A DNA stretch of 64,000 nt. Origin: Dromiciops gliroides. Its lineage: Eukaryota; Chordata; Mammalia; Microbiotheria; Microbiotheriidae. The position numbers and the translations under genes were made by a program. Below are positions 10,245 to 55,706 of the stretch, piece by piece. The notes under the pieces are model-generated. The model saw nothing but the letters and a program-made list of their open reading frames with translations, made no database searches and was not told the origin of the DNA. Each line of letters begins with the position of its first letter. Position 1 is the stretch's first letter. The stretch spans positions 3,498,223-3,562,222 of the forward strand of contig NC_057866.1 in the NCBI RefSeq assembly GCF_019393635.1, written 5' to 3'.

Positions 10245-13200
10245 ATGGCCTCTTCTACCACAAAGGTAAGGAAGCTGGGCTGGCTGGTGGGGGGGGCGCC
10301 CGGCAGGAAATCCGCACCTTTGCACAGGCTTCCGTCTGCGTCTGCTCAAGCCAAAATGACCTGGGCATTTTCTTGGGCAGAGCAATATCATGGAGCTGTT
10401 AAAGATGACGTCTTCCCCAACACAGTCAGTCAAAAGAAAGCTTAGTCTGCACTCCAGTTTTGTATTGGAAGGTCAGTATCTCCTTCTTGCCTTGGACCCG
10501 GGGGCCAAGTATTCAGCCGACACAAGGGGATGCCCAATACGGGCCCAGCCTGGCTCTCACACCTGGTCTGACCGACCCCTGAGGCATCCTCTGGCCTCCC
10601 TCAGACTGTGCCCTGGCTAGGGAGCTGCAGCCTAGATTGGTCGGTGGGAAGGGTCCCCAGAAGAAAACCCGAGGTGCCTGGAACAGACACATAATTGCTT
10701 TACTAATCCTCGTATGGCTTTGGACAAGTCACTTGACCTCTGTGCCCTTTGCAACTCTTGACTGGTGGCCAGTGGTTGTGGAGCTCCGTTAGAGGGAACT
10801 GCTGGGAAAGAGCTTCAGATCCCAACCCTATCCCCAAATCTCAGTGAGCTTGAGCATGGGCGTCCATACAGAGCCTGGCTGGGGCTGGAGGAGAACCCGG
10901 ATGTTCTCCTTTCCTGCCCCTTCCATAGCCTTCTAGGGCTGAGGGAGGGAAGCTGAAGAAATACCTAAATAAAGGCAAGGACGCGTATATGGGGCGGAGG
11001 GGAGTACTTGTGGGGAAAAGCCTTAGAGGTAGAATATTTGGAGAATGAGGGATGAGAGAGCTGATCCCTTGAGAGGGAGGGAGGGGGCTATGCCCACCTG
11101 CATGGGAGGCAAAAGCTCCAAGCCTTTTTTGGTATGGGTGGCAGACAGAGGTGGCACGGGATAGAGCACTTGGCCTGGAGTCAAGAAGACTCATCTTCCT
11201 GAGTTCAAGTCCAGCCTGACACTTTCTAGCTGTGTGATCTTGGGCAAGTCCCTTAACCCCATTTGCCTCAGTTTCCTCATCTGTAAAATAAGCTGGAGAA
11301 GGACATGGCAAACCACTTGGGCATCTTTGCCAAGAAAACCTCCTAGGGGGTCCCAAAGGTTTGGATATGATTGAAAATGACTCAAGGAGGGAGGAAAAGA
11401 GAGTTCCACCAGTTGGGAAGTAGAGTGAGGGTATCTGCACAGAAGTGGTGACTGAGCCTCTGGTTAAGAGGGGAGGGGAGGGGCAGCTAGGTGGGGCAGT
11501 GGATAGAGCACCGGTCCTGGAGTCAAGAGGACCTGAGCTCAAATTCGGCCGCAGACACTTAACACTTATTAGCTGTGTGACCCTGGGCAAGTCACTTAAC
11601 TCCAATTGCCTCACTAAAACAAAACAAGAGGGGAGGGGAGCGAGGACAGAGGCAGAAAGAGGAGTCTTGGGGAAGCTGGGAGGAGATGTCCCAGCAACTC
11701 CCAAACAGGGCTAGGGAACCACCCCAGTCCTTTGGGGGAGCTAAACATGCCTCTGTTTCCCCCAAGATGATGTACTTTACTACCGGGGTAAAGGTAAGTA
11801 TCAAAGAGTTCTCTTCACCCTGGAGAAGAAGCGGAAAGCATTTGAGGAGGCTCATATTGTGTCTAAGGACAGGCACCATGGCGTCCGGGCCACGGGTGTC
11901 AACATCACCAGATCTTACTTCTGGCCAAGAATCACCATCCAAGCCCGGCAGTGGGTATGTGGGGGGCGGGGCCGGCAAAGGGAACCCTTGTCCACTAAGA
12001 GCTGGCATGTCTAGGGTATTCCCGGGAGGTAGTGGCTGTGTGTTCCCCAGATACTGATTCAGAATAAAAGGGAATTGACAGGAAAGAGACCAAGTCCTTG
12101 GGGAGCTAGGGGAGCTCCCAAGAAGCTCTCCCACTTTATGAATGGATGTGTGACCAGCCTTGCATGGCTTGGCCCCAGCCTCCATGCTCCTCACATGTAA
12201 CACTCACCTCCTTTCTTCCTGCCCTTCCAGGCTGTCCTCCATGCCTCTCACTCGTTCATGTTTTTCAGGGCTCACTCGCATGAGCCCTGTTCTGTTTTGG
12301 GGGGTGGGGCTCCAGAGCCCCAGGCTGGTCCACAGCACACCTCTGCTGAGTCTAGCTCTCCTTTGGCTCTGGGTACTGCATTTGTAGGTCAGGGCTTGAG
12401 CCAGTGGGTCAGGGGCTCTGGGGCATCTCTTCTCCCTAGAGGGAGTTCACCTGGTTCTGACTCCCTCATTAAAGACACTGGTTGGGGAAGTGAGAGGGCC
12501 CCAGAGGCTTCCCGAGATGGCCGAAAGGGCCCATGGAATAAGAGCCGCGCTGAATGGGAGCAACAGGGGGTGGATGATGCGCCATGTGCAGCAAGCCTCC
12601 CTCCCTCTCCCCATCTGACTCAACTAGGGCTTTTCCATCCACAGGTGAAGGAATGTGAGAAATGCCAGAAAGACCGGTTAGCGGAGCTGGAAGCCCAGAA
12701 TGCCAAGGTAAGGGCTGGTACACCGATGTGGGAGGCAGAGCTTGAGAGGGAAGAGCCAGGGCCCTTCTGCACTGGCCCAAAATGCCATGGCCAGGAGGGT
12801 GGGTGGAGATGGGACCATCTGGCCTTGGTCTTTCTTGGCTGGGTTCGAGTCATCTCATTCCTTCCTTCACAGGTTGAGGCTAAGAAGTGTAAGAGTGAAG
12901 AGCCCTTGGTCCCCGAGCCAAAATCGCCCCCAGAACCTAAGAGGAGACGGCTCCCGGGACCTCCGGAGGAAGAGCCCCTGGCACTTCAGGTCCAGAGGAC
13001 GCCCCCCAGGTCCCCCAAGATGGCGCCCCTCCCCCCAGCAGTGGCAGCACCCAAGAGAGTGGCCCCAGTGGTCCAGGTATCAGGGGGCCCCAGTTTTCTC
13101 CAGTGAGACTTGTGGGGGCTGTTCAGTCTCCCACCGGATTCCAGTGGGGAGGGAATCATGGGAGGGCTGAGGGTCAATAACCTCCAAAGGCTGGCCGGAG

Positions 13201-14791
13201 AGGAGGGAGGGAAGACTCTAGTGCACAAGGCAGCTTCTGAGAAATGGGCCTATGGAGGCCTCAGATATCTCTTCATCAACACAAGTTTGTGCTTTTCCCG
13301 CCTCTGTCCCAGAAGTGAGTCAGTCTGAAGGAGACACCCCTCTGGTGGTGCCCGGCCGGCCACACAGTCGGCCAGGGTTTCTCTGCTCCACTGACCCGTG
13401 CCCTTTGTGCCCCCCAGGCCAGAGGTCTGTTCCATCTTGTCAGCCTTCAGCTGGTGGGGCCCATGAAGCAGACGGCGCAGGGGGCTCGCTTCATCTTCGT
13501 GGTCGTAGACCACTTCACTCGATGGGTCGAGGCTGCCCCCATGAAGACCTGCTCCCCTGAGGAGACGGCTGAACAGGTGCTCAAGTTGGTGTATCGATTT
13601 GGCTTCCCAGAAAGGATCATCAGTACCCAGTGCAGTAGATTTGTCCAAAAGGTAGGGTCATTTGTTGGCACTGACTGGCTGAGTGCCTCCTGAGTGTTTA
13701 GCACAGTGTGTAGGCACTTTGGGTGCCCAAATATAAAAAAAAAAAAAAAAGACCAAAAAGCGGTGTGTCCGTGTGGGGTGTCACCAGTCAAGAGCTGATG
13801 TGGGGGGGGAGGGGGACGCTGCTTCAGGGAAAGACAGGAATTCAGATGAGTCTTGGAAGATAGGTTGGGTTCAGATAGGCAGAGAAGGAGGACGGCATTA
13901 CAGGTGGCAGAGAAGGACGTGAGCAAAAGCTTGGAAACATATCATTAGGGGACAATGCAACTTAGGGGAGTAGTGCTAGAATTTTCTAGGTTCTAGATCT
14001 GGAAGGGACCTTAGAGATGCTTCATTCCGGCAAAGGATCTCCACTTGGCAGAGGAGCAAAGAGAAGATGCTTGCCCAGGGATCTGCCTGCTTGTAGTTAG
14101 GAGCCGAGTTCCGATCTGCACTGGCCCTGAGACTGCTCCCAGACTAGCCCCTGACTCGGCGGATGGCATCTGTATCTATTGCCCAACAGTCTGTACCATC
14201 CCAACCTCCCGTGTCAACCTAGCTCTCCTCCCCCATTTCTTGCAGCTAAATCAGACTTTGAGAATGCAGACCAAGCTCCTCTGTGACCTTGTCGTTCAGT
14301 ATCACCCCCAGACACACGGGCTTCTGGAAGAGACCAACGCCTTTGTGAAGAGGTGAGCCAGGGTCGGTGGCCTGGGCCCAGCATCTCTGGGAGTGAGTGA
14401 GCCCTCTCTTCTCCTGAATCTTCCCCTCCTTGTGTTTTTGGCCTCCGTCTGGCTGGCCCTGTATGATCTCGGGCGAAAGCTTGGCAGATGGCCGCAGCTA
14501 GCTCTTCCGCCTCCAGGCTCTCTTTGGTTTAGATGGTGCAGTGGATAGAGCACTGGCCCTGGAGTTGGGAGGACCTGAGTTCCAATCTGGCCTCAGACAC
14601 TTTACTAGCTGTGTGACCCTGGGCAAGTCACTTAACGCCCAAGAGATTGAACCTAGGCTTTGTGGGGGTGAATCTTCCACCAGAGGGGGCCAGTATGGCC
14701 ATGCAGGGAAGATCAGGGGGCAGGAGGGAAAAGAAATCCTCACATGACCTGATCCCTGCCCTCTGAGATTCCACAGGCTAATTGAGGAAAA

Positions 14792-14885
<94 letters not shown>

Positions 14886-17800
14886 TGTGAGAGTATGTGA
14901 GAGTGTGTGTGTGGCCTTGGCTAGTTCCTTTCTCACACATATACATGCACACACTTATGCACAAATACAACCCCCTCTCTGGGCCTCAGTTTAACTTATA
15001 AAATGAGAGGCTTGGACAAAAGGTTCTCTAAGGTCCCTTCAGATTCTAACAGGAGTTCAGTGATAAGGTGGCAGCTTCTACTTTGTGGTTCACAATGCCC
15101 CAGCCCTATTAGGGGTGGTGCTCTTCTCCCCCATTTTCCAGATGAACACTGAGGCTCGGTCACGCAGTGAGTGCATGCCCAAGCCAGGCTTCTCTCCAGG
15201 TCCTACCCACTCCTCTTGACTGCTCCCCATTCTATAGAAGTGACTCTGTGGGATCCTTTTTTTTTTTTTTCCAGGGCTGTCAGGTGAGGCTGTCATGGTT
15301 AAGTGACTTGACCAGGGTCACACAGCTAGTAAGTGTCAAGTGTCTGAGGCAGGATTTGAACTCAGGTTCTCCTGAATCCAGGGCCAGTGCTTTATCCACT
15401 GTGCCACCTGGCTGCCCCTAGGATCCTTCTTAACCTTGAAATCTTGGCTCTGTGTGGAGAGACTCACCTTTATTTTCTGAGAGAAGCGCTGTGTTCTGGG
15501 CCTGAGGGGATGTGGCCCAGGTCTGAAGGAGGGCAGCTGGGCTGTGAGGAGGGGTGCACCCCCTGCTGGCTTCCCCTCCCCACCCCTTTCGGTGGAAGCC
15601 CCACAAACTGCTTTGGTTTTCAGGTTGCTCAAGCTGGTGGTGAAAGAGAACACTGATGACTGGGACCTCCACCTGCCAAGTATTCTCTTCCTACAAAAGC
15701 AGGTAAGGGGCTCCTCCCTCCTATCCGTCTACCTTCCCATCATCCTCTAGCCATCAATCTCCCCGTCTGCCATCCATCTACCTTCCCATCCTCCTTTCTT
15801 CCTCCATCCGGCTATTTGTCTGTCCACCTTCTGCTTGGCCGTCTCCTGGGGGAAGGTCTTTGCTGTGCTGCTGTCTCTGCTTGGTGAGGGTCCTAGAGCT
15901 GAGAGAGGAGCCTACAGAAAGGTGGACTCAGCCAACTGGGGCTAAGCTCCCTGTCAATAGCAGTCCACATACAATTTGTTATCCCATTAGTTCTGATCCT
16001 AGGCACTTTTTCTAATAGTAACTCTGCAATAGCCCTTACAATGCAGTACACAAAATAAAATTGGTGACGAGCAAAACTTTTTTTCTGGCTTTTAATTCCC
16101 TAGCACTCTGGGACCTTTTGTGCCAACATCTCAGTAAAAATTGATTTTGGACAATATTCACTTTTTCTAATACACGAAATCTACAGTACATAATATCGTA
16201 GGGCAAATAAAATTCTTAAAAACATTTTTTGAAGCTCAACCTTCCCTTCCACTGTGTCAGATGGCAGTGTGAGGGTGTGGCGCTGGCTACTCCACACCTC
16301 TCCACCTTGGCCCCCCTCCGAAAACCAAGAGTGAGGTTGCCGGGACTTCAGCCTTGCTGTAGGAAGATGCAGAAGAAGTGGTGGTGAGGTCCCAGCGGCA
16401 CCTCTGATACTGTCCTTCGCGGTGTTGGAGGTTGGGAGGGATGAACCTTTCCTCATTTTTACTGATAGAACAAAACCAAATTCGTGGCCAACAGTGGCTG
16501 CAGATGTTCCAACATGAAGCTTATTTCACCCTGTTAGTTTCTCACTAAGCCGCATCCCTGACTTTGGATGCTCCGGCTTAGAGCCTAAAGGACTTGCACT
16601 GCGCTTTGGAACCATAATTGCAACACCAAACTGGAGCTTTCTTCAATGAATGCCCAGGGAGTTCTCTACAAGAGGGGAGAGAACGAGGCCAGGGAAGCAC
16701 CCAGTAGGACATTTCTCTGCTGCCCATTAAGGGAGCTTGTGCCATCACAAACATGAAAGTGAAAATGAGGTTACTAATAAAGTCAGGAGAATGGGTGAAG
16801 TCACGGTTAGGTAGTTAAATGCTGGAAGGTCGAGGATTGATAATATTTGTGAAGTGCTTTACAAACTGTCCCAGCGACGTGAGTGCCAGTTATTGCTATT
16901 GTCACCATCATAGAGTTAAAAGGTGGCTTAGAGAATATGCCCTCATGCAGACAAGGAAACGGAAGCAAAGACAGGTTCTGTAAATCGCCTCTGACCGCTT
17001 CTGAGTAACTAGAGGTGAGGCTGAAGGCACAGGCCAAGCCTGGATCTTGAAGGGCACAGAACTCCAAGCGGAGCGTTCTGAAATGGTCTAGCAGGTAATG
17101 GGGAGCCATGGAAGGTTTTTAAGGACAGGTGAACAAAGGTGTGATGTGGGAAGGTGCAGTGTGTGCTGGGGGATGGTCAGGGGGCTAGGGACCTCAACAG
17201 TCCAGGCATGATGCGGTAGGAGCTGGAAGAGGGATGGGAAGGGGCTTGGGTGGAAGAAAAAGCAGAGGAAGGGAAGCCTCTCTGGGCTTCAGGGGGAGCC
17301 GGTCACAGGAGATGCTGATTCCTAGGGCTTGGGGTCTTGCCCTTCTAGGTGGAGAATGAGTCTGAAGAAGAAGGGGACCTTAGCTCGGAGCATGAGTTAG
17401 AAGAAGAGTCTGACAGCGATGAAAGCTTGCCACCGGCCCCCTTCCCCACAGCCTCCTCAGAGCTGCCCCCAGTTGAGGAGTCGGAGATGGTGATGGCGAA
17501 CATCCTCGGCATGGAGGACATGTGTCTGTACTGTAACCAGCTCACTGACAAGGGCAACAGCGAGCTCTTCACAATGGTGAGTCGAGACCTTTACTCTGCT
17601 GCCTCCCATCCCAGGATGCTCCAGGCTCATCTGGGTGCTAGTGACAACTACCTGAAACTTGGCCAGCAAAGCTGGGAACCTTAACTAGGAGAGCTGTCCC
17701 AAGATTGAACGGACCTAGTATTGGGGCCCAGGCCTCACCCTGATGAGAAACGATAGCTTTTAGTGGTCACGATTTTCAGGCAGTGGCCAGGATGTCCTTG

Positions 17801-18525
17801 GGGGAGTCCTTTCACATGTTGTAGGTTTCAGTGCGTGCCTCTGAAGTTTACTTTACAACGAGGCTTACTTGGCTCTTCTTGTATCCCATTTTTCTTTTTT
17901 TTTCCTTTTTCTTTTTTTTTTTTTTGCTGGGCCATGAGGGTTAAGTGACTTGCCCAGGGTCACACAGCTAGTAAGTGTCGTGTCTGAGGTTGGATTTGAA
18001 CTCAGGTGCTCCTGAATCCAGGACTGGTGCTTTATCCACTATGCCACTTAGCTGCCCCCTATCCCATATTTCTTAGGGGAGACAAACAATATGGTGACAT
18101 CCTTCTGAGATAAATTAGATGAGGGCTTCTTTACCCCATGAGGGGTCTGTGTCGTCCCTGGTGTTAGATCAAAATGTGTTAGGGGTGGGTGAGGACTCAG
18201 CTGCCCTTGAAGGGGGTGGGGAGGTAAGAATTTCTGGGGAACAGAGTGTAATTGCTATTATTTCTGACTGGGAATAAGTGGTGCCCAATCCAATCAATAT
18301 TAAGTGCCTACTCCTTGCTAGGCACTGTATTAAGCACAGTCCCTGCCCTCAAAGAGCTTACAATTTAAGGGGGATGTTTGGGTTTTCCAGCTGCAGTGCA
18401 ACAAATGTCAGGCCTGGGCCCACCAGATGTGTGTCATGCAGTGGCACAGAAAAGAAGAATGGAAAACCGGATTCCAGTGCAAAACCTGCTTCCTGGGACA
18501 TGAGCGCAACTCGGCACCAGAGTGA
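10245..18525 (+). CDS. domesticated integrase-PHD finger gene, copy A
   Basis: Host gene of ten coding exons: 10245-10265, 10381-10471, 11767-11954, 12645-12707, 12873-13076, 13418-13651, 14246-14352, 15624-15702, 17349-17576, 18391-18525. All junctions are AG/GT and the phases join into one frame of about 449 codons. Residues 38-107 form an integrase HHCC zinc-binding domain (LYYRGKG motif, H67, H74 or H75, C104, C107). Residues 122-189 are a basic, proline-rich linker with a likely nuclear signal (EPKRRRLPG). Residues 190-329 resemble a Gypsy/GIN-type integrase core (FIFVVVDHFTRWVEAAPM, YHPQTHGLLEETN). Residues 332-375 are rich in acidic residues. Residues 388-438 are a PHD finger: C388, C391, C408, C411, H416, C419, C435, C438, with the family's W414. 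The acidic catalytic triad looks incomplete, so I infer a DNA- or chromatin-binding role rather than recombination. Start: the first ATG in exon 1, placed by analogy with copy B. Nearest known relatives are probably GIN1/GIN2 and Ginger-derived genes; exact orthology is unresolved. Confidence 0.75.
11150..11393 (+). mobile_element. CORE-SINE (MAR1-like) in copy A intron 2
   Basis: Sense CORE-SINE: GGTGGCACGGGATAGAGCAC, then CTCAGTTTCCTCATCTGTAA and a CORE-type 3' part ending near GATTGAAAATGACTC. Confidence 0.85.
11481..11627 (+). mobile_element. tRNA-type SINE in copy A intron 2
   Basis: Full-length SINE with an ACAAAACA-type tail. Target duplication GAGGGGAGGGGAG on both sides. Confidence 0.92.
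13342..13688 (+). repeat. near-identical tract shared with 35269-35615 (exon 6 of A and B)
   Basis: Covers exon 6 of copy A, about 75 bases of upstream intron and about 37 bases of downstream intron. Compared by eye with copy B it differs at roughly 11 positions; nearly all exon differences lie near the exon's two ends, and the central ~185 bases of the exon are identical. Other exons of the pair are clearly more diverged, and similarity drops abruptly outside the tract. The best reading is a gene-conversion tract. Confidence 0.85.
14532..14641 (+). mobile_element. partial tRNA-type SINE in copy A intron 7
   Basis: Starts in the SINE at GATGGTGCAGTGGATAGAGC and stops after TCACTTAACGCC with no A-tail, so both ends are truncated. 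Confidence 0.85.
14794..14912. repeat. (GT)n(GA)n compound microsatellite
   Basis: About 28 GT units, then about 16 GA units, then further GT-rich sequence, in copy A intron 7. Confidence 0.95.
15257..15417 (-). mobile_element. tRNA-type SINE, antisense, in copy A intron 7
   Basis: Antisense SINE with a T14 tail, flanked by the imperfect direct repeat GGATCCTT(T/C)TT, 200 bases before exon 8. Confidence 0.92.
15703..17348 (+). other. copy A intron 8, mostly unassigned
   Basis: Intron between the integrase core and the acidic/PHD exons. A CCATC-rich stretch lies at 15720-15820. The AT-richer part at 15960-16800 is not a repeat I recognise and shows no long coding frame. No additional exon is supported. 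Confidence 0.4.
17895..18059 (-). mobile_element. tRNA-type SINE, antisense, in copy A intron 9
   Basis: Antisense SINE with a long T-rich tail. Direct repeats TATCCCATTTTTC and TATCCCATATTTC flank it. It lies between the two exons that split the PHD finger. Confidence 0.92.
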
Positions 18526-20036: not shown

Positions 20037-20056
20037 GGGAGTCATAGGACAGGCCT

Positions 20057-21098: not shown

Positions 21099-21114
21099 AA
21101 GATATAATGGGCTT

Positions 21115-22190: not shown

Positions 22191-22429
22191 TTTTTTAAAA
22201 AGGAATTTTATTTTTCCCCAAATCCATGTCAAAACAATTTTCACATTCCTTTTTAAAACTTTGTGTTCCAAATTCTCTTCCTTCCATTCTCCTCCCCTTA
22301 AGAAGAGAAGCAATTCAGTATTAGTTATACATGTGTAGTCATGCAAAACATTTCCATGTTAGGTTGTGAAAGAGAGAAAACAGACAAAAAATACCTCAAG
22401 AAAAATAAAGTTTAAAAAATTCTGCTTCA

Positions 22430-23041
22430 TTTGGAATTATGCCCAAAGGGCGATAAAGCTGTGCATACCCTTTGACCCAGCAATTCCACTTTTAGGTCTT
22501 TTTCCCAAAGAAATCATGGAAAGGGGAAAGGGACCCACATGTACAAAAATATTTATAGCTGCTCTTTACGTGGTAGCAAGGAATTGGAAGTTGAGGGGAT
22601 GCCCATCAATTGGGGAATGGCTGGACAAGTTGTGGTATATGAATACAATGGAATTTATTGTGCTGTAAGAAACAATGAGCAGGAGGAGTTCAGAGAAACC
22701 TGGAGGGTCTTGCATGGGCTGATGATGAGTGAGATGAGCAGAACCAGAAGAACATTGTACACAGTATCATCAACATTGAGTGTTGACCTACTGTGATGGA
22801 CTAGATTCTTCTCACCAATGCAATGGTACAGAAGAGTTCCAGGGAACTTGTGATGGAAGAGGATCTCCAAATCCAAGAAGAAAAAAAAAGAACTGTGGAG
22901 TATAGATGCTGAATGAACCATACTATTTCTTTTGTTTTTGGTGCTGTTGTTTTTTTCTATTTTGAGGTTTTTCATCATTGCTCTGATTTTTTCTCTTATA
23001 ACATGACTAATGCAGAAATAGGATTAATGTTATTATGTATA

Positions 23042-23085
<44 letters not shown>

Positions 23086-23226
23086 ATCAGATTACCTGCT
23101 GTCTAGGGGAGGGGGGAGGGAGGGGAGGGAGGGAGAAAAATCTGAAATTGTAAAGCTTGTATAAACAAAAGTTGAGAACTATCTTTACATGTAACGGAAA
23201 AAAAATAAAATACTTTATTAATTTAA
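22430..23226 (+). mobile_element. LINE-1, 5'-truncated, nested in another L1
   Basis: L1 3' region closely matching 4665-5472: GAATTATGCCCAAAGGGCGA, a (TA)n run at about 23040-23080, a G-rich tract, then AATAAAATAC and an A-rich end. Flanked by the direct repeat AAAAAATTCTGCTTCA (22414-22429 and 23227-23242), so the target was the older L1. Confidence 0.93.
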
Positions 23227-26577: not shown

Positions 26578-28248
26578 ATGGAGTCCCTTAGGAAGGAGCG
26601 GCAGGTGAGCTGGCTGTCCGGACCACCTCTCACGCCACTGCAGGGCTTGGAGTTCCCCCACCTGCACCCCTCAACCACTCTATTCTCGTTTCCTTTGCCA
26701 GGCCACGGTTTTGCAGCTTTTGAAGACTGAGTCTTCCCCAGAGGCACTGAGAACACAGCTTCTTCAAAAGGCTAATTTCTTTCTGGAAGGTCAGTATTTC
26801 TTTCTTGACTGTTGGGGGGAAATTGGTGGTAGTTGGGGTTTCTTAGGAATTCCTCTTTAAAGAATTACATGCTCTTGCGCACAAATCCAATTAGAATAAA
26901 ATGAGATTTTATTTGGGCGCTAAGGAAAGGAAACCAAGAGAGAAGGCATGGCACAGAGACGTGGCTCTCTGGGATACCTATCTCCCAGAGCAGGAGAAAG
27001 GCAGATATTTTTATATAGGACTGATGGTGGTCCGATGGGGTGACCATCTGACTGTGGAAAGTTCCCTTCTTGGGGGAGGACCGTCTCCGGCTGGTGGTGG
27101 TTGGAAGTTTGGCGAGAGGCAGCTGGAATCTCTCTCGCCATCTCTGTCCCCCTCCCCCCACAAAGGCAGCAACCGCACCCAATGGACCTGCTTCTAGGTG
27201 TGTCTCCAGGAAAAGACCCATGTCAGCTGGCCAGGTCAAACTTCGACAGTCCTACCCCATTACATTAACCTTGATCTTTTTTGGACAAGGAGGAGACTTG
27301 GTGCTCAGAAGACTCTAATGCCAGCCTCCTTCCTCCCATCACTGAGGGCCCGAGACCTTGATCTTGGATGGGCTTACGGCAGCCACCCCTTGGCCCAGAA
27401 CTCTGAACCCACTCCCCTGAGAGTAACTAAGTCCTAGAATTCCTTGATGGCGGAACCCAAGGCAATTCCTTCCTGCCCTGTGCCCCCTGCTCTCTGAGCA
27501 GGATTTTCCAGATCTGACATCATGAACTTGCCCTTGGAAGCTGGTGTCAGTGACCGGCGGGAGGATCCCAGATACCCTCCCTCGCTTCCAGACTGCCTGG
27601 TTTGATTACACCTTCGGCTCTGCTACCTTTCTTTCTAGGATGTACAAAGCCTGGTGCCGATAGGCTCTGTCTCCCCAGAGCTTGCTTCGCTGTGAATTTT
27701 GAGGGGACTGTAGGGGAAATCATAAAGGAGAGTGTGATGGGCCAGCGCCTACTTCTTGCCAGGCACTGATGGGGGTGGGGGGCGGGTGCAAAGACAGAAG
27801 TGAAAAGGCCCCTGCTATTTCGTTTGGAGACTTTTTATAACGTGACATAGTCTTTTCACTAGAAGGCACTAACTAGTAACTTTGGGGGATGGGAACCGCA
27901 TAGGTCAGGAAGGGAGGGCACTTGAGCTGAACTTTGAGGGAAACTAGGGATGGCAGGAGTTGGCGATGAGGAAGGGAGGGCAGCATAGCCACCAGATGGC
28001 AGGTTGTGTGTCAGGACCACTGAGCTTGTCAGTCTGTTGGCACCACAGATAGAGGCCTGTAAGGTAGGTCGAAAGGGGCTTCCGTGCCAGAAAGAGGTGT
28101 TCCTATCTCATCCTAAAGGAAGCCACTGAAACAACTGGGAAATGATAGATATGGTTGGACTCATGTTGGTGTAAAGGGATGGACTGGAGATTGAGAGACA
28201 CGAAGAAGAGAGGCCAGATAGAGGCTAAAGTGACCATCTCTAGGTGCA

Positions 28249-28295
<47 letters not shown>

Positions 28296-31200
28296 CACGC
28301 GCGCACGTGGGGGGGAGAGGTGGGAGGGCAGTGGTCTGACTATAGTTGTGGTGTGGCGAGAAAGATGGGAAAGGCCTCATCTCCTGGGGGTGGCCGAGGA
28401 TTCTAAGAAGATGAGAATAATTTGTAGAAGAGGTGTGTGGGATGACACATCCCTCCCAAGGCTGAGAGGAGGGGAGAGCTGTTCACTGGAGGTGGAAAGG
28501 GACTGTGTGGTTGAGGATGATTTTAGAAGGGTCTGGAAAGACTTGTATGAACTGATGCATAATGAAGGGAGCAGAACCAGAACCTTGTGCAGAGACAGCC
28601 ATATTGTTTGTTGAAGAACTGTGAATGACTTAACTATTCTCAACAATACAAGGATCCAAGACAGTCCCAAAGACTCATGTTGAAGCATATGATCCACCTC
28701 CAGAGAAAGAACTGATAGTGACAGAACACAGACTGAAGCATGCTCTTTTTCACTTTCTTTCGTTTTTTCCCCTTTTATTTGAGTTTTCTTGTACAAAATG
28801 ACTAATACAGTAATGTTTTACATAATTGCACTTGTATAACCTATGGTTGCTTACTCTCTCAGGGACAGGGGAGGGAGGAAAGGAGGGATAGAATTTGTTA
28901 CTCGAAACCTTAAATACAAATGTTTATTTAATTAAAAAAAAAAGACCCTCTGGGGGCAGCTAGGTGGTGCAGTGGATAAAGCACCAGCCTTGGATTCAGG
29001 AGGACCTGAGTTCAAATCCAGCCTCAGACACTTGACACTTACTAGCTGTGTGACCCTGGGCAAGTCCCTTAACCCTCATTGCCCTGCAAAAAGACAAAAA
29101 AAAAAAAGACTCTATGCAATGTCTTCAGTTTGCCTCTGGACCTAGGTACAGTAGGGAGCCACTGGAGTTTATTGAGTGGGAGCAGCATGTGACAGATTGA
29201 GACTTGTCTTTCAAGGAAGTGACTTTGGCCACAGAGTGGGAGGGTGGATTAGGGAAGGGAGAAAATTGAGGAAGGAGGGGGACCAATGAGGAAACCACCA
29301 GTCTGGTGACCCTGGCAATGGAGAGACTGGGATCCTCTAGAAAGGGAGGTAAGGCACAGAGTGGTGGGTGGCTAGAACTACCCTGGAGAGGATATTATAG
29401 ATGGAGGCACCTGACAGGGTGTGGAGAGCGGGTTGAGCCAGGACTGTGAGCAGCGGTGCCCACTGCGTTCCAGAACAGTTGGTTCCTGCGGCTGATGAGG
29501 CTCCAGGTAGAGTGTTCTCTGCACTGATTTCTCCCTGGTTCTACCCCTTACTCAGGCTGAGGTGCAGTGGGGTGGGCTCTTCTATCCTGCCTCTTCTTGC
29601 CTCTGCACCCTCCTGGTTCTCTCTGATCTCAGCTCTACCTCCTGGAATCCCTCCCTCCCTCCCAGCTTCCCACCTGGGGCCTTTCCCTATCCAGGCGCCC
29701 CCCACCACCATTTTGCTCTCACTTATCTCTTGATTCAGTTTTCTCTCCCCTCCCCCCTTCATCCTAAGGCATTGAAGGCTGGAGTAGGCAGTCTTTTACT
29801 GTTCTGAGTCTAAGGAGAGGGGAAGGATGCTAGGGAATTCAGAATGCCAGGGTAGTCACCTCCAACCCTGGGCTGGGCATGTAGAGGGACTTAGAAATCC
29901 TTTGCTAGGAGCTGGCTCAGATCGTCTTCTGCTGTCAGTGAATGAGAAGCCCACGGGGCTAAGGTCACAACCTTGACCTCGCTGGGGGAGGGGGTGAAGA
30001 AAGACAGAGGAGTTTCAGGTTGCAGGTAAAACTTCTGGTTTTTGCTTTTGTTTTGTCTCCTTTGCAAGGAAATCACCTGTACTACAAGGGCAGAGGTAAG
30101 AAGCAGAAGATTCTGTTTACCCTGGAGGAGAAGAGACAAGCGTTCCTGGAAGCCCACATCTCAGAGCAAGGCCACCTGGGCATCCGGAAGACCGGGGGCA
30201 ATGTCACCAAGTCCTACTACTGGCCTGGGGTGGTTTTTGACTCCCGGAAATGGGTAAGGAGAGCTGGGTGGGGGGGATGGTGGAAGGGAGGAGGGTGTCC
30301 CCACCAGCCTTAGGGACGGCTCTGGGCCCCTGCTTTTTGAGGGGAGACCTGGCTTAGCCAACTCAAAGTGTCTACATTTGGAAGTGGAAACCTCCTCTTC
30401 CTATCTGGCCACCCCCCAGCTTGATTTTACCCACGTCCGAGGGAGGGGCGAGTGCTGGGAAGCGGGAGGGGCGAGTGCTGGGAAGCGGGGAGGCCCCTTT
30501 TTATGCACCCATCGCCATCCTGAATCTCCGGTGAACTCACTCCGCATGCACATAATTCCCCCTTTGCTTCGTGGGGCGGGGGGTGGGGGTGCGGCTGCCA
30601 GTCTGTCTGGAGCTCGCCTCCAGCTTCAGCCACAGCCTGCCCAGTTCTGGTGGTGCTGCTGCTCTTTGCACTTAGCTAGGGGAGTGAATTCTTAATGGGG
30701 GACTGAGAGCTTGTTTTAATTTGACCCTTGCTTTCCTCTGGAATCCTGGGTGGGCGGGGTGGCATTTGAAATGCTTCTTGAGATGGGGCCCAGGCTTGCC
30801 CAGCCTGATGCCCAAGGAGTTATGACTGCAGAAAAGCGAGGGACCTCCTCTCCTGGTGGCCATTCTGACCCCCCTTTTTACATCTCTGAAAATGGGCACC
30901 CCAGAGAGGGGGCTGCTGCCGGGCGCCTGCCATCAGGTGCCATGGCTGCCGCCTCCCCCCCCCTTTCCCTTGTGTCCCGTGCCCGGATGGTCAGTACTCT
31001 GTCGTTCCAAAGTGTCCCGATCTTGCTGCGGTTGTGGAGCTGGGGGCTGGGGGCAGGAGGGAATGCAAAGTTTTCTCCTTTGCGGTTTTGAAACAATGAG
31101 TGGTGCTGAGGGTTTGCTTTGAAAAGAACCTTGTGGCCCTTCCTTCCTTCCCCCGAGGTGGCGGGGACCTACTTAAAATTTAAATTCACCTGCAGTATTG

Positions 31201-34200
31201 GGAGGGGGAGAGCAGCTTGTGAATAACAAGGGCTCCTTAAGCAGCTGAAGCTGAGACAGCTGGTTTCTGGTGTATTGAAAAGCCGCCTTCCGGGGTTATT
31301 TTCTCCTTCTTCCCTCCCCCCACCCTAGCTTTTGAATAAGGGCGGCTCTTTATCCTGGGGAGAATGAACGTTTCAATTTTGGTATTAGTCATGTTACTCG
31401 CCTCACTTAATTGGAGACTCTGGTTTCCGGTGTGCTGGAAAGCATCTTCCTGGGTTTAGGTTATTCTTTGGCTATTCTTTAGCGTTACGGGGCATGCCTA
31501 GGCAGCCCTCGGGGGAGGTGACTGCAGACTCTCCAATTTCTGTGTCGCTGACCTAGTGTGGCTGAAGTTCGGCCTCCCAGACAGGAGGGTCTGAGTGGAT
31601 GATCCCTCAGGGTCCTGTAGCTGGACCCTCGAGGGTGGTCGTTCTCAAGGCTTTGGTCTCGGGACGACTTCACTCTTAAAAATTCTTGGTCCCTCTTTTG
31701 CCAAAAGGTTTTTATTTCCTCGGGTTCTCTCTCGCTACTTACCCTACTAGAACTAAAACATCGAGGTCATTATGAAAAGTCCGCACCCGGCAGGCCCCCT
31801 GAAAGGCTCTTGGGACCCAGGAGTCCTTGGACCAGACCTCAAGAATCACTTTGAGAACTCTGGGTCCAGGGGAGCCCCTGCATCTCTGGGATGTTTGAGG
31901 TCCCAACAATAAGGATGCCAGCCTCCATCTCCAAGCACACCAGCTCATCCACTTCTAAGAGCATCTCAGTTTTGAGGGTCTCTTCTCTCTCTGCACATTT
32001 CAGCCAGTTTAACTCCCCCAGGAAAGATGCTGGTTTGATGCTCAAACACCGTCATCAGTAGAGTCCTGAGACCTTTGGGTTGGGGTACGGACTGGGGCTG
32101 GGCCCTCACTGGGCCCTGATACTGGGCAGCCTGCCCTGGGAACTAGGGTTTGACTCTGACATTTGCTGATGGTGTGACCTTGGGCAAGTCACTTAATTTC
32201 TTTGACCCTTAGTTTTTCTAGCTATAGAATGGGAATACTTATGTTGTCCTGGGTCTGGCCAGCCTTTTGTTTATGACCTGGGAGGCCTTTCACCAGGTGA
32301 TTTCCTTATTTTACAAATGACTTCCATAAAACTGCAAGTGAAAACCTAAGATCTGGTCCTGGGGGAGGTCTGGCTTCTCTCCTGCCTGGCCTGAAAGCTC
32401 CTCCCTTCTCCCAGGTCAAGGAATGTAAGAAATGCCAGAAGGAGAAGTTAGCAGAGAAAGAGAAAGAGAAAGAGAGCCGCTCCTCCAAGGGGGTGAGTGG
32501 GGAGCTGTCCAGGGGGCTGACTGGGGGGCTGTCCTGCAGGGTAAGTGGGGAGACTGTCTGGCGGGGTGAGTGGAGGGCTGTCCTGCAGGGTGGGTGGGGG
32601 TCTGTCTGGCAGGGTGAGTGGGGGTCTGTCCTGCAGGGTGAGTGGGGAGACTGTCTGGCGGGGTGAGTGGGGGGCTGTCCAGTGGGGTGAGTGGGGGGAC
32701 TGTCCAGCGGGGTGAGTGGGTGTCCAGTGGGGTGGGCAGGGGTCCAGAGGGGCTCTGTCTCGCCCCCATCCATCCCTCCAGGGACCCAGTGGGCAAGGGA
32801 AGGAGTAAGATTAGATGGGTCCCTCCTCGAGGACGGCACAGCATTCTTGACCCCTTGGGAGGGCAGCAGAACAGGATTCTTTCCTGGCCAGGCGGGAGCC
32901 CAGCTTTGTGCTTTGTCTCACAGATGGGGAAAACTGAGTCCTTCAAGAAAGCCAAGCCCACCCGCGCTCCTAAGAAAGAAGGCACCACAACAACACCTAA
33001 GGCAGACCCAGCCTTGCCACTGAAGGCGAAGAAGGCGCCCCAAAGGGAGCTGCCTGCGGCCCAGGTAGGCATCGAGTCATTGGGGTGAGTTTGGGGGTAT
33101 TCATTGGGGCCAAGATGTGGGAAGAACCTGCTGGGCCTAGGAGGGAATGGGGGGAGTTACCTCCAAGGTCCCCTCTGTTATACTCCTACCCCCCTCGCCA
33201 CTTTGGTTCTCCTTTCTTCCACAAAGAAGGGCCCATTTTGGGCCCACCGACCATTTACTGTGGGCCTGCACTATGGGGATGGGTGTAGGAAACAAATGAA
33301 GCAGCCCCTGACTTCAGTCTGATGTGGGCTAAATTTGGGGTCAAATTGATCGTGAGTCGTCCCAAAAGAATTACAAAACTTAGTGACTCTCAAAATGTAC
33401 CCCGAGCTACCATAACTTCCTGACCCATCCGTCACCTCTCAGAGATTACCAACACCTCACCTGTGTCCATGTGGGTATCCATTAATTAACTACAAAGAAC
33501 CCAATCCAGGGCACCCCCCAGACTGCTGGGTCTTGCTAACAGGGCAATTCCCTTTTTCCCTTCTCAGAAAAAAAGGGGCGAAATCCCTCAGGGTAAATCA
33601 CTTGATCCAGGATCAATGAGAAATACCCCTCCATTTGGTGAGCCAGCCAGCCTCCCAAATGAGACAAAACCCAAGTGCAGGAATTAAAGGCAGATCCCAA
33701 ACTTACCATCGCAAGATCTCACCCCACTGCTTTCAAAAAGAAAAGAAAAGGAGTTTGAGCTGCTTTGGGTGCCAAATGATGTGGGCTGGAATTTGGGTCA
33801 AATTGCTAGTCATCCCAAAAGAATTACAAGACTCAGTGACTCAGTTTCCCGTTTTATTGCAATACTGTGAGTGACCACAGGGAGAGAACCAGAATAGTGG
33901 AAAGTTATCTCTCCAATAGTGAAAGGAAATAGTTATATTTATAGTATGGATAAACTGATTATCAGTCTCATTACAATAATCTCTACCTTTGGGAGGTACA
34001 GGGGAGGGCCTATCCTAATTTGGAGTTCCTGGGGTCCTAAGCCAACCCTCATGGTGGGTACCTTTTTCTGTGGAGGTGTGTTTTGGGGGTTTACACCTCA
34101 TAAAGGGAATCTGGGGACAAATTTGGCCTTTTCTGTGCATGTCTCTTTCTGATTCCCATGGCTAGTTTCAAAACATCTTCATTTTTCATTAGAATTTCTG

Positions 34201-37200
34201 TAGCCTGTCATTTTATTTAAGATCTTCATGGCCTAGCTCCCTCTGTTCCCATTATGAGTACTGATTTCTGTGGGTACGAGAACCTAGCATCCTGATTTAT
34301 AATTATTCATTAACTGGGGGGTCTGAATCCCTTTTAGAGCTAATATCTGGATTAGAGCTTGGGTCTTGGGTTTTTCTGTTAACCCCTTTTTGCCTCCTAC
34401 ATCAAGTCTGCTGGGGGGGGGTGTAGGAAACAAATGAAACAGTCCCTGACTTCAGGGAGCTTCCACTCTGCTGGGGGGGGGGGGTGGAGCAGCACCTGTG
34501 TACCCAGCGCAGTACAGGCTTTTTGTGGTAGGTGGCATTTGACTCTCACTCGTGAGGAAGATGTGAATCACTATGTGGGCACGTGAGACAGGAGCTCACT
34601 CCTGTCTGTGCAAAGGCTGGGATGGGGGTTACACAGAGCAAAGCTTTCTTTGGCCCTGGGTCTCCACCATAGGGGCTTGTAGCACTGAATGTGGGAATGG
34701 TGAGAAATCTGGCAGCCAATGTCTGGTTTGTGTCCTTATCTTATAGGCCCAGACACCCGGGGTCATGGGTGGAAAGTCCAAGAAGCCCTAATGTAGCTCA
34801 GTAGGCCAGGCCGGCTGGCATGTCACTAGAAAGGGCATGACGCTGTGCGGACTAAATGGGGGGATCCTGGAACTCTTTAAGACTGATGGAACAGGGCAGC
34901 TAGGTGGCACAGTGGATAAAGCACTGGTCTTGGATTCAGGAGGACCTGAGTTCAAATCCAGCCTTAGACACTTGACACTTACTAGCTATGTGACCCTGGG
35001 CAAGTCACTTAACCCCCATTGCCCCACAAAAAAATAAAAATAAAAAAAGACTGATGGAACATTGGGAATGGAAGGACTATGGGCTGCTAGGGAGGGTCCC
35101 CCTACCTCTGAGTCATGGGCTGTTCCTCAAGGTCCCTGCCAATCCTACCATTCTGTGGTGCCAGGTCGTTGGAAGTCACAGGGAGGGCAGCTTATGAGAC
35201 AGAAACCCAGGCTTCCTGGCTCCCAAGCACCTGCCCTCCGGTGTCCCTGGGCCTCTGAGCCCTCTCTGGGTATGGTGCCCGGCCGGCCACACAGTCGGCC
35301 AGGGTTTCTCTGCTCCACTGACCCATGCCCTTTGTGCCCCCCAGGCCAGAGGTCTGTTCCATCTCATTGGCCTTCAGCTGGTGGGGCCCATGAAGCAGAC
35401 GGCGCAGGGGGCTCGCTTCATCTTCGTGGTCGTAGACCACTTCACTCGATGGGTCGAGGCTGCCCCCATGAAGACCTGCTCCCCTGAGGAGACGGCTGAA
35501 CAGGTGCTCAAGTTGGTGTATCGATTTGGCTTCCCAGAAAGGATCATCAGTACCCAGTGCGGCGGCTTTGTCCAACAGGTAGGGTCATCTGTTGGCACTG
35601 ACTGGCTGAGTGCTTGGCATGGTGTCTCCACTCTTGGCATGTGGGGTGGGGGTGGATGCAGACAGAGCTGCCTGAGTAAGAAGACTGCCTCTGTGGAGGC
35701 CACACATTAGGTAGCAGCTCTGCGCTGTGCACTCACCGGATCAGCGGCCGGGGGAGAATTGAGAGACAAGACCTTGGCATACTATGGGGGGGGGGGTTGA
35801 GTGTCCTTGACATGTCAGGATAAGATGTCACAGAAAGGGTGGCAAAGGGCTTCCACTGGATCTCAAACGTAGCCATCAGAGAGGCAGGGCATTCTAGGTG
35901 GAAGGGAGGGACACGAGCAAAGGCTTGGAGACGGGGATCTGCCAGCTGTGCTAAGGAGAGTCATCTTATTTAGGAGAATTGGTTTTCTAGAACTTAGCTT
36001 GTGCCGTCTAATCTCCCCTCCTTTTGCTGTGGAGTAAATTAAGTCAGGCCTAAGAAGGGAAAGTGTGAGCCCAGGGTGACACAGATAATAGGCAGCAAGA
36101 GTTAGGGTTAGAAGCTGGTTCCTCGGACTCATCTGGAGCCCCTGCCTCACAGAAGGAGATCCTCAGGTGCCCAAGAATCCTGCCTCCATCTTTCACTTGC
36201 ATGGCCCCTGGCTGGCTTCCAATTCAGCTCTTCCCCCCCCCCCCAACTCTTGCAGCTGAATCAGATTCTGAGAGCAGAAACAAAGATCAAGTGCGACCTG
36301 ATTGTCGTCTATCACCCCCAAACACACGGGCTCCTGGAGAAAACCAACTCATTTGTGAGGAGGTGAGGCTGGGTGGGAGGGGAGCCCTGGGCTGAGGTGT
36401 CACTGCCTTCTCCCCCTTCTTCCCTCCTCAGGGGGCCACCTCATGCCTTGGCCCTGGTGCTGTCTGCCCACTCGTGTGTGGCCTTGGAGGAAATCTGGGA
36501 GGTGGAGGCATCCAGCTGCTTGGCAGCCAGGCATTTTCTGTCTCCCACCCTCAGGGGCCAGTGTGGCAATGGGGCCGCCTGCCATGCAGCACTCAGACCT
36601 GGGGGATGGGAAATCTGGCCAAGCTTTCTGAGTCTAGTTGGGGACACACTTACCTGGCTGCGTGACCTTGGGCGAGTGACCCGATTTTCCTGGGCCTTGG
36701 TTTTTCCTTGAACACCCAAAAGTTTATTTATCAAGCATTTTTCTCTCAATGATCCATTGAAGGTAGGGTAGTTCAGTGGTCTCCTTTTGCCCACAGTCAG
36801 TGTTGGGGCTACGGTTCAAAATTAGGTTTCTCCAGACCCCAGGCCCAGCTCATTTGCCTTCAGATTCTGTCTGGAAAAGGGTTAAGATCTTAGAGCCCAA
36901 AAACCTTCAGGAGCGCTCCCTTTGGAAAGGGGGGGAGAGGGAAAGGAAAGCGGGGAGGGGGAAGGAGAAGAGGAGGAAGAGGCTCCACTGAGGACTGGCA
37001 GGGATTGGCATTAGGCACTAGAATAGGAATCCTGAGGGATGATCCTGGGGCTGCTGCCCTACCTCAGGCCTTGGCTTGCTCTTTCTAGGGGACCATGCAT
37101 GTTCCCATGCTATGGCCTCTTCCCTTTCTAGCCTGCTTTCCTTGGTGGTGAATCTAAACCAGGTGGACTGGGATGAGCAGCTCCAGAAGATTCTCTTTCT

Positions 37201-38799
37201 GCAGAACCGAGACTCCTACAACGTAAGTGACCAGGCCTGGCTGCCTTCTTTGGGGGGTTTGGGGGGGCCTCTCCCTCTCCTACCCTTTGCCAAGTTCTGC
37301 TGTGATGTGAAGCCAACCAGGAGCAGGGGGAGGGAGCGGCTCCTTTCACACCATGTGTCCTATACTCTAGAACTCGGTCTCCTTTCTTGTGTTACTGAGC
37401 TGGCACCTGATTCCTGGCCCTCCTTAGATTCCATAGGTGGCAGTCCTTTCTCCCCCAGTCTCTTTCTTTGCTTTCCCCAACTTCTAATAAAGGGCTTGGC
37501 CCGCAGGAAGCACTTTATGAATGTCTTAAATTGAATGGGAAGCAATCCTGCCTTCCAGCATAGGGGGAGGCTGTCCCCGGGCTTGGCCCAGAGGGCATTG
37601 GGAGGATTTTGTGAGGCCAGATTTTGCCTTGGTAGGAGAAAACTTCCCAAGATGTTATGGGAACTGGGAGGGGCCTGTTATAACAATTTAATCTGGGGGT
37701 GTTTGGGAAGCACTTACTTAGCCCAGTGCCCAGAACATGTTGTTGTACCGGAGAGTCTGGAAAGCAATTTATGGCATTTCTGATCATTTGGTAAAAACCG
37801 AGGGGTGTAAAAGAGCCTTCTGTGGCTCTGTTTTCATTTATCCGTGCGTGTGGAAATGCTGTGTTGGTGTTTAAGTTCAGAACGCAACATTAGAAAGAGT
37901 TGGGGAAGCTCTTGGTGTCTCTTCCTCTTCACACCCAGGATGAAGAGGATGAAGATGATGAATACCTCGACAGCCTGGAGGATTCCTCCGCAGAGGACTC
38001 TGACGCTGACATCTGGCCGACGTTTGTCAGCCTTCCGGAAGCCCTGGACGTCGCCCAGGAGCGGGACAAGGGCCCAGCTGTAACCGTTAGCGTGGATGAC
38101 ACGTGCTCCTATTGCAACAGGCTCACCGACGAAGGCAACAGTGACGTGTTCACCATGGTGAGGACATTTTGCTGATTGTCATCTTGCTTCAGCTCTTTCC
38201 CCAATGCCATGGCCAGAGCCCTGCTCCTTTGGCCTCCCTTTCTGGCTGATTCCTGTGGCTCTAAGGGCTGGAGGGTGAGTGGGTGAGTGGGTGAGGCAGA
38301 GGTTGGAATTCCTATATGGGAGGCTTACCGCCACCACCAGGGACAGGAGAATTGCCTGCTCTCAGGATTAGGGCAGAGTCATGGGGGGTCAATTTCCCAA
38401 ATCACATGAGCTACCCCAAAGTAGAATGAATGGGCTGCCTAGGAAGGTGGTGAGCTCCCCATCACCGGAGGTCTTCCTGTAAAGGCTCGTCAGGCACTTG
38501 GGCTTTGGGTTACTTCTGGTTTAACCATTATTTTGTGACTTGAGGTGGCCGCTTCTGGAAGGTGAAAAGGCCTTTCCTCTCCCCTTGGAGGGACTGGGAA
38601 GAGGGCTTAGGAGAGGGGGCGGAACATGGGCTGGCTGTCATTTCTCCATCCCTCCCTTCCCCACCTTGTTTGTGCTTCCCAGCTACAATGCGAATCCTGT
38701 CGGGGCTGGGTTCACCACATGTGTGTGCGGAGGGAGCACGGAGATGAAGACTGGAAAGCCCGCTTCCGGTGCCGCCTCTGCTTACCGCTGTCAGCCTGA
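26578..38799 (+). CDS. domesticated integrase-PHD finger gene, copy B
   Basis: Tandem paralogue of copy A with the same ten-exon plan: 26578-26604, 26702-26789, 30069-30253, 32415-32492, 32924-33064, 35345-35578, 36256-36362, 37132-37222, 37939-38157, 38683-38799, about 428 codons. The ATG has a preceding TATA-like box and opens MESLRKERQ. Residues 39-107 are the HHCC domain (LYYKGRGKK, H68, H74, C104, C107). Residues 127-173 are a lysine-rich linker (KAKPTRAPKK, PLKAKKAP). Residues 174-317 are the integrase-like core, ending with YHPQTHGLLEKTN and a W-containing helix region. Residues 318-336 are a strongly acidic run. Residues 373-423 are a PHD finger: C373, C376, C393, C396, H401, C404, C420, C423, with the same spacing as copy A. 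The triad again looks incomplete. The nuclear chromatin role is inferred. Its introns are larger and filled with transposons. Confidence 0.77.
26866..27240 (-). mobile_element. LTR fossil, antisense, in copy B intron 2
   Basis: Antisense LTR of the same family as 61330-61660. On the minus strand it shows a TATA region (CTATATAAAAATATC), the shared segment GTGCCATGCCTTCTC, and a poly(A) region with AAATAAAATC. No internal viral genes beside it, so it is a solo or fragmentary LTR. Boundaries are approximate. Confidence 0.65.
27440..28240 (+). other. copy B intron 2, unassigned
   Basis: No recognised repeat except short ancient fragments. No exon supported. Confidence 0.4.
28249..28300. repeat. 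(GT)n(GC)n microsatellite
   Basis: About 19 GT units followed by alternating GC/CA (GCGCGCGCACGCGCGC), potential Z-DNA-forming sequence in copy B intron 2. Confidence 0.93.
28530..28940 (+). mobile_element. LINE-1 3' end, 5'-truncated
   Basis: Begins TCTGGAAAGACTTGTATGAA, matching 25395 onward, through the L1 3' UTR to CAAATGTTTATTTAATT and A10. Confidence 0.9.
28952..29107 (+). mobile_element. tRNA-type SINE in copy B intron 2
   Basis: Full SINE with a poly(A) tail, inserted at the tail of the preceding L1; flanks AAAAGACCCTCT and AAAAGACTCTAT. Confidence 0.92.
30254..32130 (+). other. copy B intron 3, GC-rich, few repeats
   Basis: Long repeat-poor stretch. A 23-base segment around GGGGCGAGTGCTGGGAAGCG is tandemly duplicated at about 30443-30490. 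Two diverged ~50-base copies lie at 31258-31306 and 31421-31470. No exon recognised. Confidence 0.45.
32145..32245 (+). mobile_element. MIR-like SINE fragment
   Basis: GGTGTGACCTTGGGCAAGTC followed by TTTTCTAGCTATAGAATGGG is the MIR pattern. Old and diverged. Confidence 0.7.
32486..32760 (+). repeat. minisatellite built on the exon 4 donor of copy B
   Basis: About ten imperfect units of roughly 20-30 bases. Many contain a donor-like GGGTGAGTGG or GGGTAAGTGG, and several a CTGTCCTGCAGGG acceptor-like core. The first unit includes the real exon 4 donor (GGG|GTGAGTGG at 32492/32493). Open frames of PTHPAxQ type on the minus strand are repeat artefacts. Confidence 0.9.
33320..34422 (-). mobile_element. 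LTR retroelement fossil in copy B intron 5
   Basis: Antisense. On the minus strand an LTR (about 34422-33780; poly(A) region revealed by TTTTATTGCAATACTG on the plus strand) is followed by a primer-binding-site-like TTTGGCACCCAAAG, a short non-coding interior and a fragment of LTR end at about 33395-33320. No recognisable gag, pol or env remains, so it is a degraded, broken element. A ~33-bp host-like segment occurs on both sides. Related to the LTR at 52333. Age: old but alignable. Confidence 0.7.
34894..35048 (+). mobile_element. tRNA-type SINE in copy B intron 5
   Basis: Full SINE with A-rich tail and exact target duplications GACTGATGGAACA. Confidence 0.95.
35269..35615 (+). repeat. near-identical tract shared with 13342-13688
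   Basis: Partner of the copy A tract: exon 6 of copy B with its immediate intron flanks. High CpG content inside the exon (ACGGCGCAGG, TCGTGGTCGTAG, CTCGATGGGTCGAGG) is preserved in both copies, compatible with GC-biased conversion or recent exchange. Confidence 0.85.
36363..37131 (+). other. copy B intron 7, unassigned
   Basis: No recognised transposon. The branch/acceptor region before exon 8 is CTTCCCTTTCTAG. A second AG at 37088 (CTTTCTAGGGG) lies upstream but would not keep the frame matching copy A. Confidence 0.4.
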
Positions 38800-55674: not shown

Positions 55675-55706
55675 CGAGCCACGCCCGGCCCGGGCTCTCG
55701 GAAAGG

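Follow-up and report, generated by a model that had tools for sequence, protein, structure and literature searches.

A cluster of at least three marsupial genes combining a degenerate integrase core with a C-terminal PHD finger

How neighbouring host genes come to encode the remains of an integrase together with a PHD finger, and what their products might do, is the question raised by a 64,000-nucleotide stretch of the genome of the marsupial Dromiciops gliroides (C6:3498223-3562222; hereafter, the window). The window holds two such genes, A and B, both on the + strand; with a third, inverted gene (C) just outside it, they form a cluster of at least three genes in the order C(-) A(+) B(+). Judging from their sequences, the encoded proteins are most likely nuclear, chromatin-associated and built around a catalytically dead integrase core, and the PHD finger may bind histones. 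The three genes probably derive from a GIN2-class gene whose GPY/F module was exchanged for an acidic stretch and a PHD finger, and the proteins would serve as chromatin-tethered scaffolds or repressors.

Genes A and B were modelled as follows (positions in the window):

10245-18525, + strand: gene A, ten coding exons, 449 codons, GT-AG borders, open frame
10245-10265, 10381-10471, 11767-11954, 12645-12707, 12873-13076, + strand: gene A, exons 1-5
13418-13651, 14246-14352, 15624-15702, 17349-17576, 18391-18525, + strand: gene A, exons 6-10
26578-38799, + strand: gene B, ten coding exons, 428 codons, GT-AG borders, open frame
26578-26604, 26702-26789, 30069-30253, 32415-32492, 32924-33064, + strand: gene B, exons 1-5
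35345-35578, 36256-36362, 37132-37222, 37939-38157, 38683-38799, + strand: gene B, exons 6-10

Exon-by-exon comparison with orthologous proteins gave entry phases of 0,0,1,0,0,0,0,2,0,0 in both genes, and the core exon 6 (234 nucleotides) and exon 7 (107 nucleotides) have the same length in A, B and C. Position 10245 is the first base of exon 1 of A, and 38799 is the last base of the stop codon of B. The borders, phases and open frames bear out the shared ten-exon plan and the limits proposed in a first-pass annotation of this DNA. That annotation also described a tandem pair: A and B are indeed neighbours on the same strand, but the count was too low, as the existence of C shows. Exon 1 of A (10245-10265, MASSTTK) is in frame but unsupported by the devil and wombat proteins, and the devil A protein begins at a Met matching position 10390, inside exon 2; an alternative reading of this exon in the frame LFYHK was dropped because the ten-exon model fits better. 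In B, a tandem array of 9.5 copies of a 24-nucleotide unit (32490-32720) lies directly at the donor of exon 4. The consensus of this unit contains the donor-like GGGGTGAGTGG, and therefore the splice donor of exon 4 is repeated in the array.

A and B are genuine genes and not chance gene models, because orthologous proteins are present in databases and because spliced retrocopies of A, B and C exist. Four intronless retrocopies or fragments of cluster genes were found elsewhere in the same genome:

C3:293.2 Mb: retrocopy L016, parent B, ~70% identical
C6:247.6 Mb: retrocopy L017, parent C, 88-94% identical
C1:302.2 Mb: retrocopy L018, parent A (exons 3-7), 76% identical
C1:542.9 Mb: retrocopy fragment, parent B

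The C retrocopy is thus nearer to its parent than those of A and B. Retrocopies cross seven of the nine junctions of B, among them exon 1/2, together with the ATG, and exon 9/10, which falls inside the PHD finger, and four of the nine junctions of A (exons 3-7 only, with the splice inside the PHD finger of A lying outside the coverage). For C, all eight modelled junctions are crossed; however, the retrocopy served as a guide in locating exon 5, the end of exon 4 and the tail of exon 2, so that junctions 2/3, 4/5 and 5/6 are not independent of it. Alignment gaps occur at three of these 19 junctions (A 4/5, A 6/7 and C 8/9). Since the retrocopies join the predicted exons, A, B and C once gave rise to spliced germ-line transcripts, and the spliced transcripts on which the first-pass annotation depended are thereby documented as past transcripts.

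The products of A and B share one domain order:

11767-12707, + strand: gene A, exons 3-4, H2C2 domain (PF17921, 38.9 bits, cut-off 25.5)
12873-13076, + strand: gene A, exon 5, variable basic/proline-rich linker
13418-15702, + strand: gene A, exons 6-8, RNase H-like integrase core without a GPY/F module
17349-18525, + strand: gene A, exons 9-10, acidic stretch and C4HC3 PHD finger, stop codon at 18523-18525 (PF00628, 18.7 bits, cut-off 24)
30069-32492, + strand: gene B, exons 3-4, H2C2 domain (PF17921, 50.1 bits, cut-off 25.5)
32924-33064, + strand: gene B, exon 5, variable lysine-rich linker
35345-37222, + strand: gene B, exons 6-8, integrase core without a GPY/F module
37939-38799, + strand: gene B, exons 9-10, acidic stretch and C4HC3 PHD finger, stop codon at 38797-38799 (PF00628, 19.9 bits, cut-off 24)

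The H2C2 domain exceeds the PF17921 cut-off in all seven family sequences that contain the region, and its four ligands, like the eight of the PHD finger, are invariant across the seven sequences of alignment A2. The linker that follows shows 30% amino acid identity between A and B. The family profile matches the integrase structures of Ty3 (E 1.1e-14) and prototype foamy virus (PFV; E 7.2e-13), and compared with these two enzymes both A and B have Gln in place of the first catalytic Asp and Thr in place of the second, while the Glu is kept; gene C carries further changes. The intact DDE triad that marks an active Ginger1 transposon was therefore not found in A and B, and the core is most likely catalytically dead. 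A structure predicted for the devil B core (P0003, a fragment beginning inside the core exon; 23 alignment rows) has ten-residue means of the predicted local distance difference test (pLDDT) of 88-96 over residues 1-80 and 63-89 over residues 81-120, and its best matches are the integrases of PFV and human immunodeficiency virus (E from 2.4e-5), with a template modelling score of ~0.4 by query. The family matches and the replaced Asp residues uphold the earlier proposal of integrase-derived host genes with an inactive core. A full-length model of wombat B was uninformative (mean pLDDT 43), NCBIfam gave solely IS481/IS30 transposase matches far under their cut-offs, and a regular-expression search did not recognise a YPYY motif.

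The canonical C4HC3 pattern of a PHD finger has a Trp between C4 and H. All eight family sequences possess the eight ligands at equal spacing in a gap-free alignment and share an invariant Trp, and the C-terminal PHD finger announced by the first-pass annotation is thereby supported. The same annotation had given the two proteins exactly the same spacing; this is true of the PHD finger, but in the H2C2 domain there is a one-residue difference in the distance from H to H. Against sequences of solved structures, the named matches of the PHD region are mostly PHD proteins, with a best E of 0.024 for a single sequence and of 0.0031 (PHF20) for the profile. The Trp and, in A and B, a Met three residues before C3 presumably correspond to the cage positions of PHF2 and ING2. 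Because the PHD part of the devil model (P0003) reaches a pLDDT of only ~50-70, no claim made here rests on a predicted PHD fold.

Gene C lies head to head with A, inverted, ~12 kb to its left and just outside the window:

C6 ~3,496,600 to 3,486,631, - strand: gene C (L012, L013), from genome search and a reading of the left flank

Its exons 3, 6, 7 and 8 measure 185, 234, 107 and 91 nucleotides, as in B; it has the zinc ligands of A and B and a PHD finger. Its first exon was not identified in the left flank of the window. The genome searches (3.30 Gb, 17 contigs) scored the best 150 of 1736 and the best 150 of 1748 candidates, so that both the three cluster genes and the single GIN2-like gene described below are lower bounds.

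The origin of the family is best judged against its nearest relative:

C1:9.11 Mb: GIN2-like gene (L019), nearest relative found among the best 150 of 1748 candidates

This gene, on another contig than the cluster, has no PHD finger and keeps the GPY/F module after the core, which was not found in A, B or C, where exon 8 ends before it. Its exons 3-9 have the same seven entry phases as the family, and the core exon again measures 234 nucleotides. Five intron positions (the entries of exons 3, 4, 6, 7 and 8) are alignable and agree by eye in alignment A1; for exons 5 and 9, whose entries fall where the sequences cannot be aligned, agreement is limited to order and phase. Only three introns are described as universal among GIN-1, GIN-2 and related host genes in PMC2836005, and sharing beyond these three favours a GIN2-class host gene as ancestor over a new domestication. 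Moreover, in a tree of 21 rows the seven PHD proteins group together (100/99) and are joined by the two GIN2-like proteins (97/94) to the exclusion of 12 other integrases. The kinship with GIN1/GIN2 drawn by the first-pass annotation can thus be narrowed: intron phases and tree place the family in the GIN2 class, but with a PHD finger and without GPY/F it is not simply GIN1 or GIN2. Identifying the C1:9.11 Mb gene by position with the published GIN2, which PMC3424704 places between OGFOD2 and ABCB9, was dropped: the gene adjoins CASTOR1 instead, which leaves its orthology to published GIN2 unproven, hence the name GIN2-like. Its other flank was read as TBC1D10A-like, but no Pfam match bore this out. 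Its final coding exon is a Met/Gln/Pro-repeat of 765 nucleotides, and a 43% match to it with three stops lies at C2:131.9 Mb.

Among the alternatives to this descent, a separate domestication of a Ginger1 transposon that already bore a PHD finger survives best, although it is unlikely. According to PMC2836005, a PHD finger occurs in one Ginger1 transposase, that of Ginger1-9 of Hydra, together with Ulp1; no donor gene emerged from a PHD search of the genome, which at E <= 0.001 returned family members and retrocopies only. Furthermore, two of the seven introns are comparable by phase and order only, and the 21-row tree unites two long branches and contains no certified Ginger1 element. Nevertheless, the five alignable introns and the seven of seven phases common to the family and the GIN2-like gene go beyond the three universal ones, the joint clade stands among the sampled elements, and neither Ulp1 nor OTU appears in the domain listings of the family; descent from a GIN2-class gene is therefore preferred.

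Orthologues are known as proteins from wombat, wallaby and devil, and in part from antechinus, for which a partial A-type model exists:

Gene A orthologues: P0004 (wombat), P0005 (devil)
Gene B orthologues: P0001 (wombat), P0002 (wallaby), P0003 and P0006 (devil, both partial)

Database names are automatic only ("uncharacterized", "Integrase catalytic domain-containing" and, for two family proteins, "Gypsy retrotransposon integrase-like protein 1"). In keeping with the suggestion that the pair is undescribed, no named family and no PHD-bearing GIN gene were found among the open-access literature matches listed. The homologue search with a family protein scored the 7991 candidates sharing most words. 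A corresponding search with the GIN2-like gene returned antechinus as the sole named vertebrate, despite the published GIN2 of chicken, frog and fish; since it missed these, absence of the family outside marsupials cannot be concluded.

Conservation and paralogue ratios point to constraint on the proteins. Outside the core exon, protein B is 88-89% identical to its wombat, wallaby and devil orthologues (the last over 177 residues), and protein A is 63-70% identical between species. Between A and B, again outside the core exon, the rates of nonsynonymous and synonymous substitution (dN and dS; Nei-Gojobori, 338 codons) are 0.465 and 1.70, a ratio of 0.27; with the core included, dN/dS is 0.24 for A-C and 0.21 for B-C (333 codons then modelled in C), all of them rough values since dS between paralogues is saturated. 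Compared with its retrocopy, B differs in amino acid without a stop at 117 of 297 codons; at the 104 of these that could be counted (wombat = wallaby), it is the retrocopy that has changed in 100 cases and the gene in one, and in three all differ; this leaves 13 uncounted. For A, 42 of 71 differing codons were counted (28 on the retrocopy side, ten on the gene side, four all different; 29 uncounted). This contrast is an upper bound, because changes on the gene stem before the species split count as retrocopy changes. Gene-versus-retrocopy dN/dS (0.31, 0.39 and 0.38) indicates direction only, not value, since a neutral retrocopy under the simple Nei-Gojobori method should not give less than 0.5. 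The selection argued for by the first-pass annotation accordingly finds support in the paralogue ratios, the protein conservation and the invariant zinc ligands.

That A, B and C are relics, in decay or seldom used, with residual open frames and no present function, is improbable. The rather low identity of A between species is in its favour, as are the failure to recognise an orthologue of C among the 7991 scored candidates, the lack of a CpG island at A or B by the thresholds applied, and the representation of devil B by two partial isoforms (P0003 and P0006). It is opposed by the close conservation of B in three species (one of them partial), the unchanging zinc ligands and the dN/dS of 0.21-0.27; moreover, the frames of A, B and C are open, whereas stops interrupt the retrocopies: 12 in 297 codons (B), four in 208 (A) and one in 361 (C).

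The core exon has a history of its own:

13336-13685, + strand: homogenised tract, A copy, core exon 6 and intron edges
35260-35612, + strand: homogenised tract, B copy, core exon 6 and intron edges

By blastn, the two tracts are 95.8% identical over 353 columns, and they also appear among the direct repeats. In exon 6, dS between A and B is 0.068, compared with ~1.7 elsewhere. Identity between the core exons of A and B is 94% in the window species, 92% in wombat and, over the 63 residues available, 84% in devil, compared with 46%, 48% and 44%, respectively, in the rest of the proteins. Wombat A and B share core residues that are absent from A and B of the window, and a clade uniting the A proteins is rejected for the core exon (p 0.008), whereas A and B are resolved at 100/100 by the remainder of the protein. 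Because of the low dS, the sharing within wombat and the rejected A clade, the sequences show that the dead core exon has been homogenised in at least two lineages, those of the window species and of wombat, while its surroundings diverged. Strong purifying selection on the core without gene conversion is very hard to credit: core exon 6 is also the most conserved exon of A or B relative to C (60% of amino acids), and the devil A-B value shows no excess over the 81-85% between orthologous A core exons, which itself counts against homogenisation in that species, but selection on the protein explains neither the low dS and the near-identity of intron edges nor the residues shared within wombat nor the rejected clade.

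By gene conversion of this exon, the A and B cores would stay interchangeable. On a rather doubtful extension of this idea, the cluster would be a marsupial innovation of three chromatin readers, in which conversion preserves the capacity for mixed dimers or multimers, intasome-like but without catalysis, steered by paralogue-specific linkers and PHD fingers.

In the preferred reading, the GIN2-class ancestor would itself be a domesticated Ginger1-type integrase, and its GPY/F module would have been replaced by the acidic stretch and PHD finger in the A/B/C branch. As the first-pass annotation suggested, the resulting protein would be nuclear, would bind DNA and would read histone tails: dimerisation and/or DNA contact may be supplied by the H2C2 domain and the dead core, the basic linker may add non-specific DNA affinity, and the PHD finger would dock the complex on the histone H3 tail. 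The outcome would be a chromatin-tethered scaffold or repressor and not a recombinase.

Apart from the points already raised with the ratios, the tree and the neighbourhood of the GIN2-like gene, several observations weigh against this reading. The integrase core profile PF00665 (rve) exceeds its cut-off in none of the eight family sequences (under it in seven, unlisted in C), and PF00628 does so in one of eight (devil B, 24.7 versus 24.0), being under the cut-off in six and unreported for wombat A. The aromatic residue that usually precedes the first Cys of a PHD finger is absent. The antechinus model contains neither core nor PHD finger, and A-B dN/dS rises to 0.65 in exon 2 and to 0.56 in exon 10, which belongs to the PHD finger. 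Finally, the Imagin protein, a comparable domesticated integrase, accumulates in the oocyte cytoplasm (PMC12863088), which speaks against assuming a nuclear place.

Comparison with known systems places the family more closely. As in GIN host genes, an H2C2 domain is followed by a Gypsy/Ginger-type core in a fixed multi-exon gene whose protein is conserved between species. GIN2 shares with A, B and C the H2C2 domain, the degenerate DDE core and the multi-exon structure; however, it is described with GPY/F and eight coding exons in PMC3424704, and A, B and C are three clustered genes at a locus other than that of the GIN2-like gene, with a PHD finger and without GPY/F. The word "PHD" is absent from the main text of that review, which calls the function of GIN2-class genes unknown. 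GIN1, compared here by its description in the literature only, is likewise a domesticated Ginger1-type integrase. The transposon Ginger1-9_HM resembles the family in combining an integrase core with a PHD finger (PMC2836005), but Ginger1 elements are transposons with a Ulp1 or OTU protease, and the family core is presumably dead. Imagin of malacostracan crustaceans is Ginger1-derived, with an H2C2 domain, a core without catalytic acids and purifying selection; the main text of the paper never uses the word "PHD", and in its tree Imagin was domesticated independently of GIN1 (PMC12863088). The vertebrate repressor ZBTB11 reuses an integrase-like HHCC finger that is required for TP53 repression, but it has BTB/POZ and zinc finger arrays, and a PHD finger is unmentioned in the available portion of PMC12062965. 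Imagin and ZBTB11 illustrate that integrase parts can be kept for non-enzymatic roles.

A transposase-derived core also works with a PHD finger, one that reads H3K4me3, in RAG1/RAG2. Unlike the present family, that system consists of two proteins, is an active recombinase and comes from an unrelated transposon family. Here, a domain of the chromatin-reader type and a domesticated integrase would be united in one host protein, for which RAG1/RAG2 needed two. In the marsupial family, the loss of catalysis, the exchange of GPY/F for a PHD finger and the concerted evolution of a dead exon can be traced from species to species; the family may also help to reveal what GIN2-class genes do.

In the surroundings of the cluster, which were compared with the published GIN2 position between OGFOD2 and ABCB9, the right flank contains an oxysterol-binding protein exon close to ORP8 (L015:8292-8642; solved-structure match E 1.2e-15). 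Within the window, an open frame of 179 codons at 56052-56588, possibly a retrogene, lies in a CpG-rich stretch (~55251-56750); it presumably resembles ZNF511, with Pfam C2H2 matches under cut-off. Blocks at 4665-5443 and 22429-23208 are 92-99% identical at a near-equal spacing of 17763-17765 and, from their translation, are taken to be copies of an L1-type element. Elsewhere in the genome, integrase-bearing open frames of a high-copy family are among the best 150 candidates; many have 1392 codons and near-equal scores, and their identity to the query is ~28-30%.

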